Positions 2,364-20,188 of a stretch of DNA of 23,185 nucleotides are shown in pieces (position 1 is the stretch's first letter; each line of letters opens with the position of its first letter). Source of the stretch: a virus; the IMG/VR virus record IMGVR_UViG_3300022707_002225, positions 1 through 23,185 of that record; one strand, given 5' to 3'. The translations under genes were made by a program, and so were the position numbers. The notes below the pieces were generated by a model that ran no database searches, was not told where the DNA came from, and saw nothing but the letters and a program-made list of their open reading frames with translations.

Positions 2364-2567
2364 ATGAAAATACCAGAACACAAAATCCAGTTCACTATCG
2401 AAGGTTTCAATGAGACATTCGAATATTACATGTCATGCTCTACTTCTCAAATTGAAGCATATTATAAAACTGAGAATTTGCATGAGACTGTTTGTGGAGA
2501 GCAGCGGTATAGAAATCATAAATCGTTTACAACGAGCCGATCACACTATTTAAAGAAAAAGAAATGA
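2364..2567 (+). CDS. Hypothetical protein, 67 aa
   Basis: Begins immediately after the stop of the upstream gene and overlaps the next gene by four bases (ATGA at 2564-2567), strong signs of translational coupling. The 67 residues are polar, with many Tyr, Ser, Thr and Glu residues and a lysine tail (LKKKK). The N-terminal third (IQFTIEGFNETFEYYM) could form beta strands. No known motif is visible. The tight spacing on both sides supports a real gene in the same small cassette as the sulfotransferase-like protein; function unknown. Confidence 0.55.
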   Translation: MKIPEHKIQFTIEGFNETFEYYMSCSTSQIEAYYKTENLHETVCGEQRYRNHKSFTTSRSHYLKKKK

Positions 2568-3061
2568 CACGCTATTGGTTCAGCCGTAAATACGAGATCA
2601 ACTTCCTAGGCATTCCAAAAACAGGAGTCACATCTGTTTGTGCTATGTTAGACATTGACATAGACAAAGACTGGGCTCAAAGTCCGGTAAAGAATTACAG
2701 CATATTCACCGTGTTGCGCGAGCCGATAGATAGGGCCGTCAGTGCTTATTATGAAACATTGAGAAGGGGGACATTAGGCAGGGGCGCAACCATTGACGAC
2801 TTCATAACAAAAATTAATCGTTGCGGGTTTTTCGATAATCATTGCGAGCCTATGGTCAATTATTTTAAGGATTGTGACTATGTGTTAATCTTCGAGAAAG
2901 GACTTATTAACCAGCTTAAGGAGCTTATACCTGTAAGTTTGGTCAGGTATGCAGAGAATGTAACGCCTCAAGACAAAAAGATAATATTGAACAAAGAACA
3001 ACGCATAAGATTGGAAAAAATATACGCACACGATATTAAGCTTTACAATTCTTTTTTATAA
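2564..3061 (+). CDS. Sulfotransferase-like protein (Sulfotransfer_2-like, PAPS-dependent)
   Basis: Probably moves a sulfate group from PAPS to an acceptor such as a glycan. Two PAPS-binding signatures are in the right order: INFLGIPKTGVTSV at residues 12-25 matches the 5'-phosphosulfate loop (K19, T20, G21, T23, S24), and FTVLREPIDRAVSAYY at 48-63 matches the 3'-phosphate site (R52, R57, S60). Further family marks are DNHCEPMVNYF at 91-101 (compare 'H-x-x-P-Q-x-x-Y'), VLIFEK at 107-112 and IYAHDIKLY at 153-161 near the C-terminus. At 165 residues it is short for the family (usually above 200) but the core looks intact. It overlaps the upstream gene by ATGA. The acceptor cannot be read from sequence; a kinase of similar fold is less likely because the PKTG-type loop and RxPxxR motif are both present. 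Confidence 0.82.
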   Translation: MTRYWFSRKYEINFLGIPKTGVTSVCAMLDIDIDKDWAQSPVKNYSIFTVLREPIDRAVSAYYETLRRGTLGRGATIDDFITKINRCGFFDNHCEPMVNYFKDCDYVLIFEKGLINQLKELIPVSLVRYAENVTPQDKKIILNKEQRIRLEKIYAHDIKLYNSFL

Positions 3062-3111: not shown

Positions 3112-4440
3112 GTGGCAAAGGTAGACAGCACTATATCGGGGTGGGTTAAAAAAGGTTTTAACAACCTGATTACCGCTGTACAAAAGAGATTCAATAACTT
3201 TACTATCTACACTAAGTCAGGATGGATAGAGGGATTACGATCCTTTACAACCGATAGCGGTGAGGTCGTAACTGTCCGTAGAGGAACCCGGATAGACACT
3301 GTTTTTTCATGCATAAACGTACTTGCTCAAGACGTTGCAAAACTACCTTATAATGTCAAACAAAAGACTGATAAAGGGGTAGAAATTTCCACAGGAACAA
3401 TTCAAACATTAGTACACACAAGACCAAATAGGTTTACTTCTGCGTTTAACTATCGTTATGATATAGTATATAAAATGCTTTCTTGGGGAAACGGATATGC
3501 TTTAATCCTTCGAGATGCAAGCATGAATCCAGTTGAAAAGACAGTCCTACCTAGTGATGAAGTCGAACCCTTAATAATAGCTGGTGAGCTTTGGTATAGA
3601 TTCAGAGGAGTATTAATTGCAGCTACAGACATGTTGCACTATAAATTATATTCTTTTGACGGTATTGTTGGTGTCAGTCCAATTACATGGGCCGCTGAAA
3701 CATTTGGATTGCGGCTGAAGATGGATAAGTACAGGGCTAGGGTATTGGGAGAACAGCCAGCGGGGCTATTGACATTTACTCAAGACTTAAACACTGAACA
3801 AACTAATCAAAATCGTGAAGCATGGCAAAGAATGAACCAGGGCGATGCCTTAGGAAAAACACCAGTGCTTAGTGGAGGAGCTAAATATACTCATTTTGGC
3901 ATTAATCCCGATGACGTACAAATGATTCAAGGGGCGGAATTGTCAGATGAAAGGATTACGGGTATTTATAGAGTACCTCCAACGTTGATTCAAGACTATA
4001 AAAGAGCCACTTTCTCCAACGCTGAACAACAAAACCTAGTCTATTTGCAAGGATTAACCCCTATTTTAACAGTTATAGAACAGGAAGACAGTTTTAAACT
4101 TTTTAAAGAAAGCAACAAAACGGCTACAAAGCCCTTTTTTACCAAATTTAACATTAAAGCACTGTTACGCAGTGATATAATGGCACAGATAGAATGGATG
4201 CGTTTCCAGCGACAAAACGTACTTATGAATGCAGATGAATTGAGGGCGTTGGACGATTTACCACCATTACCTGATGGATTGGGCGAAATGTATTTGGTGC
4301 AGGGAGCAATGGTGCCCATGCATTTACTGGAGCAGTTCTTTTTAGCAAAAGGAACGACACCAACGCAAAGGGAAATTGATATTGATGAATTATTAAAAAT
4401 GAAAGGTGAAGATCTGATTTTAAACGGACATAACAAATGA
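3112..4440 (+). CDS. Portal protein, HK97 family
   Basis: Forms the dodecameric ring at one capsid vertex through which DNA enters and leaves. The 442 residues are the usual length. The conserved N-terminal block RRGTRIDTVFSCINVLAQDVAKLPYNV (about residues 56-82) is typical of HK97-family portals, followed by the Pro-Asn-Arg region (HTRPNRFTSAFNYRYDI), a WGNGYAL segment and, in the clip/stem region, the ERITGIYRVPPTLIQDY block (about 281-297). Start is GTG at 3112, chosen because it gives the MAKVD start right before conserved sequence and no in-frame ATG is nearby. It overlaps the next small ORF by ATGA. Its place between terminase and protease/capsid genes agrees. Confidence 0.93.
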   Translation: MAKVDSTISGWVKKGFNNLITAVQKRFNNFTIYTKSGWIEGLRSFTTDSGEVVTVRRGTRIDTVFSCINVLAQDVAKLPYNVKQKTDKGVEISTGTIQTLVHTRPNRFTSAFNYRYDIVYKMLSWGNGYALILRDASMNPVEKTVLPSDEVEPLIIAGELWYRFRGVLIAATDMLHYKLYSFDGIVGVSPITWAAETFGLRLKMDKYRARVLGEQPAGLLTFTQDLNTEQTNQNREAWQRMNQGDALGKTPVLSGGAKYTHFGINPDDVQMIQGAELSDERITGIYRVPPTLIQDYKRATFSNAEQQNLVYLQGLTPILTVIEQEDSFKLFKESNKTATKPFFTKFNIKALLRSDIMAQIEWMRFQRQNVLMNADELRALDDLPPLPDGLGEMYLVQGAMVPMHLLEQFFLAKGTTPTQREIDIDELLKMKGEDLILNGHNK

Positions 4441-4559
4441 AATTATTAATAGCAATCTTTAAACTACCATTTAATTGGATAGTGTTGTTTGGAAGATATA
4501 TAGAAAGAGTTGACCACGATGTTAAAATGTATTTAAAAAGAAAAAAACGTGGCGGTTGA
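4437..4559 (+). CDS. Small membrane-like ORF, 40 aa
   Basis: A 40-residue frame whose ATG overlaps the portal stop (ATGA at 4437-4440) and whose end overlaps the next gene by 11 bases. It begins MKLLIAIFKLPFNWIVLFGRY, a hydrophobic stretch long enough for one membrane segment, and ends in a very basic tail (MYLKRKKRGG). The coupling to the portal stop and complete filling of the gap argue for translation. The short length and lack of a known family keep confidence moderate. No function is proposed. Confidence 0.45.
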   Translation: MKLLIAIFKLPFNWIVLFGRYIERVDHDVKMYLKRKKRGG

Positions 4560-4893
4560 TATAACAGGTTTAAATACTAAAACATCAACAAACTTTACAT
4601 TTGATGCCAAACGGGGAAGTATTACTATTTTTGAGCAGTCATTTGTGCGGTTTTTATTAGTGGTAAATATTACAAAAGGGCAAAATATATTTAATATTAA
4701 TGAGGTTCAATTTAAAGGTGAACAAGTAGGGAAAACATTAAATTTTAATTATGATGTAAAAAGTTTTAAGGGGGATAAATTACTTGTTATATATGAATCA
4801 ACTAATACAATTGAGTCAACTTTGAATGAATTATTACTTGAAGTTAAGGAATTAAATAAACTAGTAGAACTAGTAGTAGAAACAATAAGATAA
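4549..4893 (+). CDS. Probable virion protein, 114 aa, beta-rich with C-terminal coiled coil
   Basis: Starts at GTG 4549 (GTG GCG, giving MAVDITG) and overlaps the preceding small ORF. Residues 1-85 alternate hydrophobic and polar residues in the manner of a beta sandwich (FTFDAKRGSITIFEQSF, FVRFLLVVNI). Residues 88-113 form a heptad-like helix rich in Leu and Glu (ESTLNELLLEVKELNKLVELV), likely a multimerising coiled coil. No family is recognised. Position between portal and protease, next to two more beta-rich genes, suggests a head decoration or fibre component, which is an inference from context. Confidence 0.7.
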   Translation: MAVDITGLNTKTSTNFTFDAKRGSITIFEQSFVRFLLVVNITKGQNIFNINEVQFKGEQVGKTLNFNYDVKSFKGDKLLVIYESTNTIESTLNELLLEVKELNKLVELVVETIR

Positions 4894-4897
4894 AAAA

Positions 4898-5497
4898 ATG
4901 GCAACCATAGAAAACGGAGGAACAGCACCTAATAAAGTAGGGGTTAATGGAAACGGTGAAATTTTAGCATTGGCTAAATCTTTTAGTGTTGCTGAAGCTG
5001 CCACACAACGAGCAGACTCTTATAGTTTAAGTAGTGGAATAGTGACTTTAGGTGACGCAACTGAACAAGGCGTGTTTTTTCTAAAAAATAATGAAATTAG
5101 AGACTTAGTTATAAATCGAATTAGGGTTAATCTTGGTCCATCAACGGGAGGGGTAACAACTGACATCACTCATGTTAGGATTTATAAAAATCCGAGTGCA
5201 GGGACATTGATTTCAGAGGCAAATGCAGTGGAAGTAAATTCAAATCGTAATTTTGGATCTACTGTTGAGTTGGACGTTGATGAATTTAAAGGAGACGGCT
5301 CCAGTACTGTTACAGACGGAACAGTACATAATGAAACGTTTATATCTCCTGGTTCAGGCGGAACATTCTCCGCAGATGAAATATTGCCAAATGGAAAGAG
5401 CCTAGCGATCACAGTAGAGCCAAATGATTCCAATACAAACATGAAAGTACTGGTGAATATTGTTTGTTTTTTAACTGATCCTAATTCAAGTAGTTAA
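4898..5497 (+). CDS. Probable head-associated structural protein, 199 aa
   Basis: Starts at ATG 4898 behind an A-rich leader (ataaaaaa) with no Shine-Dalgarno site. Composition is that of a virion surface protein: rich in Gly, Ser, Thr, Asn and Val, no Trp, with repeated short beta-strand patterns such as DLVINRIRVNL, THVRIYKNP and KSLAITVEPND. It ends with a hydrophobic strand MKVLVNIVCFL. No signal peptide, so it is not secreted in the usual way. A decoration or head-fibre role is inferred from the position between portal and protease and from composition; no enzyme motif is present. Confidence 0.7.
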   Translation: MATIENGGTAPNKVGVNGNGEILALAKSFSVAEAATQRADSYSLSSGIVTLGDATEQGVFFLKNNEIRDLVINRIRVNLGPSTGGVTTDITHVRIYKNPSAGTLISEANAVEVNSNRNFGSTVELDVDEFKGDGSSTVTDGTVHNETFISPGSGGTFSADEILPNGKSLAITVEPNDSNTNMKVLVNIVCFLTDPNSSS

Positions 5498-5502
5498 ATA
5501 TA

Positions 5503-5934
5503 ATGGCAGAACAAAGAGTTATACTTACAGACGCTAAAACAGGTGCATACGCCAAGGTTACTCAAACTGGTCAATTAACTGTAGCTCCTTTTGATTATTC
5601 TGAAGTAGTATTTATAGTGTTAGAGGAACCTGATACAGCTTTTAATTTTTTCCGTCCAAAAGATAAACAACAATTTGTAATAACATCTATAAACGGCAAA
5701 GCCGATCAGGACGTAAGCGTTGTGGTTGATGCTTCTTTAGTTATATATGAAGCAAGTTCTTTCGATACTACAATAGTAGATAAAGTACTATGGGAGGATG
5801 CATTAATAAGAGGTGACAGAACAGGACTTTCACCTTTGAATATCTTAGTGAACAAAGGAAAGTATGTAAATGCAAAAACAACAGATGACGATATACATTT
5901 GATAATAACCGGATTTTACATTAATGAGTTATGA
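5503..5934 (+). CDS. Probable structural protein, 143 aa
   Basis: Begins six bases after the preceding stop and overlaps the protease start by four bases (ATGA, 5931-5934). The protein is beta-rich and acidic: TGAYAKVTQTGQLTVAPF near the start, a central hydrophobic stretch SEVVFIVLEEP, and DDDIHLIITGFYINEL at the end. There is no catalytic motif or membrane segment. It is the third of three consecutive genes of this type between portal and protease, which suggests a set of accessory head proteins. Function cannot be named from sequence. Confidence 0.7.
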   Translation: MAEQRVILTDAKTGAYAKVTQTGQLTVAPFDYSEVVFIVLEEPDTAFNFFRPKDKQQFVITSINGKADQDVSVVVDASLVIYEASSFDTTIVDKVLWEDALIRGDRTGLSPLNILVNKGKYVNAKTTDDDIHLIITGFYINEL

Positions 5935-19726: not shown

Positions 19727-20188
19727 ATGAAAATGACTAATCATGAATTATTTAGATTTGAGAGCAAAATAATGCCAATTCCACAAACGGGATGTTGGGA
19801 GTGGATAGGAACAATTGTAAACGGATACGGACAATTTAGGTTAAAAAACAAAGGAGTTAGGGCTCATCGTGTGTCTTATTGTGCTTACGTATCTGAGTTT
19901 AATAAAAACCAATTAATCCTACATAAATGTGATAATAAAACATGTGTTAATCCAGATCATTTGTTTTTAGGAACTCATGAAGACAATATGAAGGACATGG
20001 TCATTAAAAACAGGCAGGCAAAAGGAACTAACAACGGGAGATCTAAACTAAAAGATAACCAAGTCATAGAAATAAGAACATTATATTCAACAAGAGAATA
20101 TAGTCAAAGACATTTAGCAAGAAAATATAAAGTTACTCATCGTAATATCTGGCAAATAATAAACAAAATAACATGGAACCACATTTAA
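19727..20188 (+). CDS. Free-standing HNH endonuclease (HNH_3 type)
   Basis: Homing-type nuclease that makes a nick or break in DNA lacking its own gene. In 153 residues: GCWEWIG at 22-28 and GYGQFRL (33-39), the first His in VRAHRVSY (H47), LILHKCDNKTCVNPDHLFLGTHEDN at 63-87 with H66, C68, C73, N75, H78, H84 and N87, and a C-terminal DNA-binding helix-turn-helix (SKLKDNQVIEIRTLY, SQRHLARKYKVTHRNIWQI). Start is ATG 19727; M3 at 19733 is an alternative. It sits between small tail-end genes and the endolysin, has no overlap with the next gene, and is likely a mobile insertion. Confidence 0.9.
   Translation: MKMTNHELFRFESKIMPIPQTGCWEWIGTIVNGYGQFRLKNKGVRAHRVSYCAYVSEFNKNQLILHKCDNKTCVNPDHLFLGTHEDNMKDMVIKNRQAKGTNNGRSKLKDNQVIEIRTLYSTREYSQRHLARKYKVTHRNIWQIINKITWNHI

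Follow-up and report, generated by a model that had tools for sequence, protein, structure and literature searches.

The gene at 2564-3061 of the window (the whole stretch of DNA analyzed here, a linear virus record of 23,185 bases that may not cover the complete genome) is probably an acquired cargo gene (moron) for a minimal PAPS-dependent sulfotransferase of the type represented by Sulfotransfer_2 / phrog_3347. This reading is based on a family match, on the fold of a predicted model, on the donor residues that have been kept and on the variable slot in which the gene lies.

Gene and Genomic Context

The terminase, portal, protease, capsid and tape-measure genes of the window are in HK97 order. 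A Bacteroidota host is suggested by the 927-aa tail protein, whose only matches are in phages of Flavobacterium, Cellulophaga and Salinibacter, all of them Bacteroidota phages. The features that are relevant here are listed below; row counts refer to an alignment of 36 rows, one of them the window protein, and L099 (IMGVR_UViG_3300025687_006674) is the nearest viral relative found.

407-2074, + strand: terminase large subunit (terL), left border of the slot (PF20441, PF03354, phrog_9)
2091-2363, + strand: 90-aa ORF, putative second insert after terL (no family above threshold, no phage match)
2364-2567, + strand: 67-aa ORF, its stop overlapping the start of the sulfotransferase gene (weak identity, 18-25%, to the slot ORFs of loci L002, L003 and L004)
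2564-3061, + strand: sulfotransferase-fold gene, 165 aa (PF03567, 36.4 bits; phrog_3347; predicted model and fold matches)
2603-2635, + strand: 5'-phosphosulfate-binding motif FLGIPKTGVTS, residues 14-24, with K19 (K or R at this position in 36 of 36 rows)
2705-2749, + strand: 3'-phosphate-binding motif FTVLREPIDRAVSAY, residues 48-62, with R52 and S60 (R52, P54 and S60 invariant in the 36 rows)
2825-2851, + strand: GFFDNHCEP motif, residues 88-96, with H93 (H in 23 of the 26 rows that have a residue at this position; GFFDNH shared with L099)
3023-3049, + strand: C-terminal YAHDIKLYN, residues 154-162, with D157 (invariant in the 36 rows)
3112-4440, + strand: HK97-type portal protein, right border of the slot (PF04860, phrog_12)

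The gene is an intact ORF of 165 codons with an ATG start, which overlaps the stop codon of the upstream 67-aa ORF (ATGA, 2564-2567), and its end is separated by 50 bp from the GTG start of the portal gene. The other two forward frames contain 15 and 12 stops across the same region. In codon use the gene scores lower than the structural genes and only slightly better than shuffled bases; acquired genes often score low in this respect. The protein had been described as compact in the initial annotation. Indeed, none of the other 35 rows is as short (the 36 range from 165 to 294 aa, mostly 170 to 220 aa), and the linker between its donor motifs is among the shortest, but it is not far out of range: with viral relatives starting at 170 aa, its size is only mildly unusual. 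A search for a promoter of its own, which carries little weight, found no sigma-70-like site on the + strand between 2000 and 3300 and no excess of Bacteroidota-type promoter motifs. No Rfam families or tRNAs were found in the window.

Elsewhere in the window, three ORFs between the portal and protease genes (4549-5934) have neither a PHROG match nor a Pfam match above the cut-off, and an HNH endonuclease gene (19727-20188; HNH_3, phrog_59) directly precedes the Glyco_hydro_108 lysis gene.

The terL-Portal Slot

Both borders of the slot were confirmed; the gene lies between terL and the portal gene as initially described. The accompanying view that no such enzyme belongs there is unsupported, because the gap between terL and portal is a variable cargo position in related phages. 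Among 67 related loci in which terL and portal could both be read, the spacing ranges from -49 to 4048 bp; it is 20 bp or less in 31 loci, at least 150 bp in 35 and at least 600 bp in 14. The cargo of relatives includes ParB-DNA methylase and PAPS-reductase-domain proteins (Pfam-confirmed) as well as transposase and others (judged by eye only). Genes with a PAPS-reductase domain (PF01507) fill the slot in L026 (2425-3198) and L070 (7570-8352). These are probably unrelated to the sulfotransferase; the common PAPS theme is curious. Cellulophaga phage phi12:1 and Flavobacterium phage 11b have the portal gene directly next to terL.

Among the TerL relatives that have an ORF in the slot, the three closest carry only one of 67-95 aa there, and these ORFs weakly resemble the 67-aa ORF of the window. 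The slot of the window therefore looks like the small-ORF arrangement of its relatives into which two genes, the 90-aa ORF and the sulfotransferase gene, may have been inserted.

A survey of related phages for a sulfotransferase gene in the same slot, as proposed in the initial annotation, yielded no further case. The scan with alignment A6 covered 48 records, 47 of them TerL relatives, and the only positive was the window itself, which served as the positive control. When 40 TerL relatives were scanned for Sulfotransfer_2, no matches were obtained, and the controls of that scan were silent too. None of 32 sulfotransferase contigs has an HK97-type portal gene. A sulfotransferase in the terL-portal slot is thus so far unique to the window phage; the kind of event is ordinary, and the cargo status of the gene is well supported.

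Family Assignment and Relatives

The sulfotransferase family named in the initial annotation is backed by Pfam, by PHROG, by relatives and by structure comparison. The profile search that had been called for gave 36.4 bits (E 8e-9) for PF03567 (Sulfotransfer_2), which exceeds the curated cut-off of 22, with an alignment that covers residues 41-67 only. The phrog_3347 profile matches residues 32-114 (E 4.4e-8). With these values, the resemblance to sulfotransferases is far above chance. A profile built from 35 relatives, with the window protein left out, scored 99.2 bits on the window protein (aligned residues 6-163), while the best of 2000 shuffles reached 9.9 bits. Because the 35 relatives were chosen by similarity to the window protein, independent evidence comes from the Pfam score.

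Annotated phage records contained no close relatives at E 0.01 or better; the best match there, encoded by a 462-kb phage, has 26% identity across 95% of the window protein. Single-protein scans of viral and genome contigs found no close relatives, a portal-based scan of viral contigs found no relatives, and a scan with a two-sequence alignment (A4) gave no matches. The search with a four-sequence alignment returned 32 viral and 11 cellular loci, several of the latter from Bacteroidota. The tree has long branches and gives the window protein no firm placement. Sulfotransferases in phages have already been reported, with a role described as unclear (PMC10580990). The window protein is a new, divergent and small addition to these.

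One member of phrog_3347 ("Galactose-3-O-sulfotransferase", moron/AMG) is PSSM7_018 from the T4-like cyanophage P-SSM7 of Prochlorococcus. It shares both donor motifs and HxxP with the window protein, at 21% identity, but is longer (196 versus 165 aa), and its gene follows gp5 rather than terL. L099 encodes a protein of 202 aa with 27% identity over the full length. Like the window protein, it has the GFFDNH motif and lacks a histidine in the linker between the donor motifs; in contrast to the window, its gene is part of a GDP-sugar/glycosyltransferase cassette, and the contig is devoid of an HK97-type portal gene.

Sulfotransferase-like domains were also seen in fusion proteins, where they follow an N-terminal phage domain (L087, 4533-5360; L092, 4608-5399; L098, 4581-5372). 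The fused domain is phrog_7759 in L087 and L092, both of which score slightly below the Pfam cut-off, and the gene in L092 is flanked by apparent tail-fibre or tailspike genes. All three fusion proteins are devoid of the linker histidine.

Predicted Structure

An AlphaFold2 model computed with the 36-row alignment reached a pLDDT of 92.9 and a pTM of 0.86. The quality of the model depends on the relatives, since a single-sequence model had a pLDDT of 34 and was unusable. When compared with solved structures by VIA-align, the best match was HS6ST (Z 10.6, 151 residues, rmsd 3.1), further matches being HS2ST (Z 8.8), 3-OST (8.7) and NDST (8.4); all 50 of the 50 matches listed are sulfotransferases. 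Foldseek against the PDB gave a bacterial sulfotransferase as the sole match under 0.001, and the top matches in a viral structure library are phage and giant-virus sulfotransferases. The best of these, the protein from Synechococcus phage ACG-2014f (A0A0E3HI70; TM 0.73 on the query), has 207 aa and 18% identity to the window protein in the structural alignment; its gene adjoins a family 6 glycosyltransferase gene. A sulfotransferase fold is thus well supported in this predicted, alignment-dependent model.

The structure check proposed in the initial annotation did not return a non-sulfotransferase P-loop fold as the best match, and such a fold was rejected on the Foldseek and VIA-align listings. 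It is accordingly very improbable that the protein belongs to a different class of P-loop enzymes (nucleoside or adenylate kinases, for instance) and resembles sulfotransferases in two motifs by chance. Uridine-cytidine and adenylate kinases do occur in the Foldseek list, though only with E above 0.1, and the Pfam alignment is short. However, the Pfam score exceeds its cut-off, the profile of the relatives aligns nearly end to end, R52 and S60 are invariant, and the VIA-align matches listed are uniformly sulfotransferases.

Donor Site and Active Site

Both PAPS-binding signatures that had been noticed in the initial annotation are present (IPKTGVTS at residues 17-24 and LREPIDRAVS at 51-60), and with them the lysine for the 5'-phosphosulfate (K19) and the arginine and serine for the 3'-phosphate (R52, S60). 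The later family marks hold up as well, these being H93 with P96 (consensus HxxPQ, here HCEPM) and Y154/D157.

A histidine between the two donor motifs is found in 29 of the 36 rows, but the window protein has none between residues 24 and 52. Six of the 35 relatives lack it too, L099 being one of them. In a profile alignment, the linker histidine of the relatives falls into the histidine-containing linker of HS2ST/HS6ST, at the catalytic histidine of HS2ST. The H142A mutant of HS2ST keeps PAPS binding but has less than 1% activity (PMC6094399). Heparan sulfate 6-O- and 2-O-sulfotransferases (PDB 5t03, 3f5f) share the fold and the donor-site motifs with the window protein; they are, however, larger enzymes of the eukaryotic Golgi with a catalytic histidine in the linker. 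The window protein is therefore not classed as HS2ST/HS6ST, the common ground being fold and donor site only. Two further positions deviate from the majority: position 16 (G, versus H in 26 of 36 rows) and position 97 (M, versus Q in 30 of 36 rows).

Since the donor residues are kept while the aligned catalytic histidine is missing, PAPS binding, as predicted from sequence, is better supported than sulfate transfer, which we nevertheless consider likely. It is conceivable, but considerably less probable than an active enzyme, that this is a sulfotransferase-derived protein that has kept its PAPS site and lost sulfate transfer; the gene might be cargo in decay, or the protein might bind PAPS/PAP in a different role. 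The changes at the catalytic histidine, H16 and Q97, the shortest length among the rows, the low codon score and the precedent of HS2ST H142A, which binds PAPS while inactive, fit such a loss. Low codon scores are, however, common among acquired genes, the ORF is intact, and H93 and D157 are kept together with the donor residues. In addition, the loss of the linker histidine is shared with other relatives, and L099, which also lacks it, retains its ORF within a sugar cassette. If the protein is active, another residue would have to act as the base; H93, D30, D32 and D36 are suggested as candidates.

Acceptor and Proposed Role

The two closest viral relatives, L099 and L085, are flanked by genes for GDP-sugar enzymes, aminotransferases and glycosyltransferases. 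L085 contains two different sulfotransferase genes within 5 kb (211-810 and 4968-5624) in its sugar cassette. The sulfotransferase genes of L082 and L084 adjoin glycosyltransferase or sugar genes. Because the nearest relatives are found in glycosyltransferase/GDP-sugar cassettes, a glycan rather than a protein is the likeliest acceptor. No glycosyltransferase or nucleotide-sugar genes were recognized among the window proteins searched, the window being a 23-kb linear fragment. In Cellulophaga phage phi12:1 (L130, 2546-4218), a Methyltransf_24 gene and one glycosyltransferase-like gene are located within the head module, flanked by the genes for minor capsid protein and prohead protease.

The initial annotation also mentioned virion proteins as acceptors. 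That a virion protein or a small molecule is sulfated instead of a glycan, the place in the packaging operon reflecting a role in particle assembly, is unlikely. It would agree with the position between terL and portal, with the start-stop overlap to the upstream ORF, and with the fusion in other phages of sulfotransferase-like domains to a phage-specific N-terminal domain, among tail genes. The slot position says little about the role, however, because relatives carry all kinds of cargo there; moreover, the nearest relatives reside in sugar cassettes, and carbohydrate sulfotransferases head the structural matches.

For the cargo sulfotransferase that we favor, the protein would be made along with the terminase and head proteins, would bind PAPS made by the host, and would transfer the sulfo group to the hydroxyl of a sugar, either in a surface polysaccharide or in the precursor of one. 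Sulfation may change the host receptor of the phage, so that rivals are excluded or progeny is kept off debris. Alternatively, it may decorate a glycan attached to the phage. The choice between host glycan, phage glycan and virion protein, and the benefit that would follow, are our interpretation. It is tempting to speculate, though improbable in this specific form, that a Bacteroidota phage makes a minimal sulfotransferase without linker histidine together with its packaging proteins, and that this enzyme sulfates either the particle of that phage or the receptor it uses and thereby sets the surface sulfation of phage or host during assembly.

With its 165 aa, near-minimal donor site and missing linker histidine, the protein is a handy test of whether such proteins transfer sulfate, and onto what. 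If active, it would connect phage infection with the sulfated glycans of Bacteroidota.
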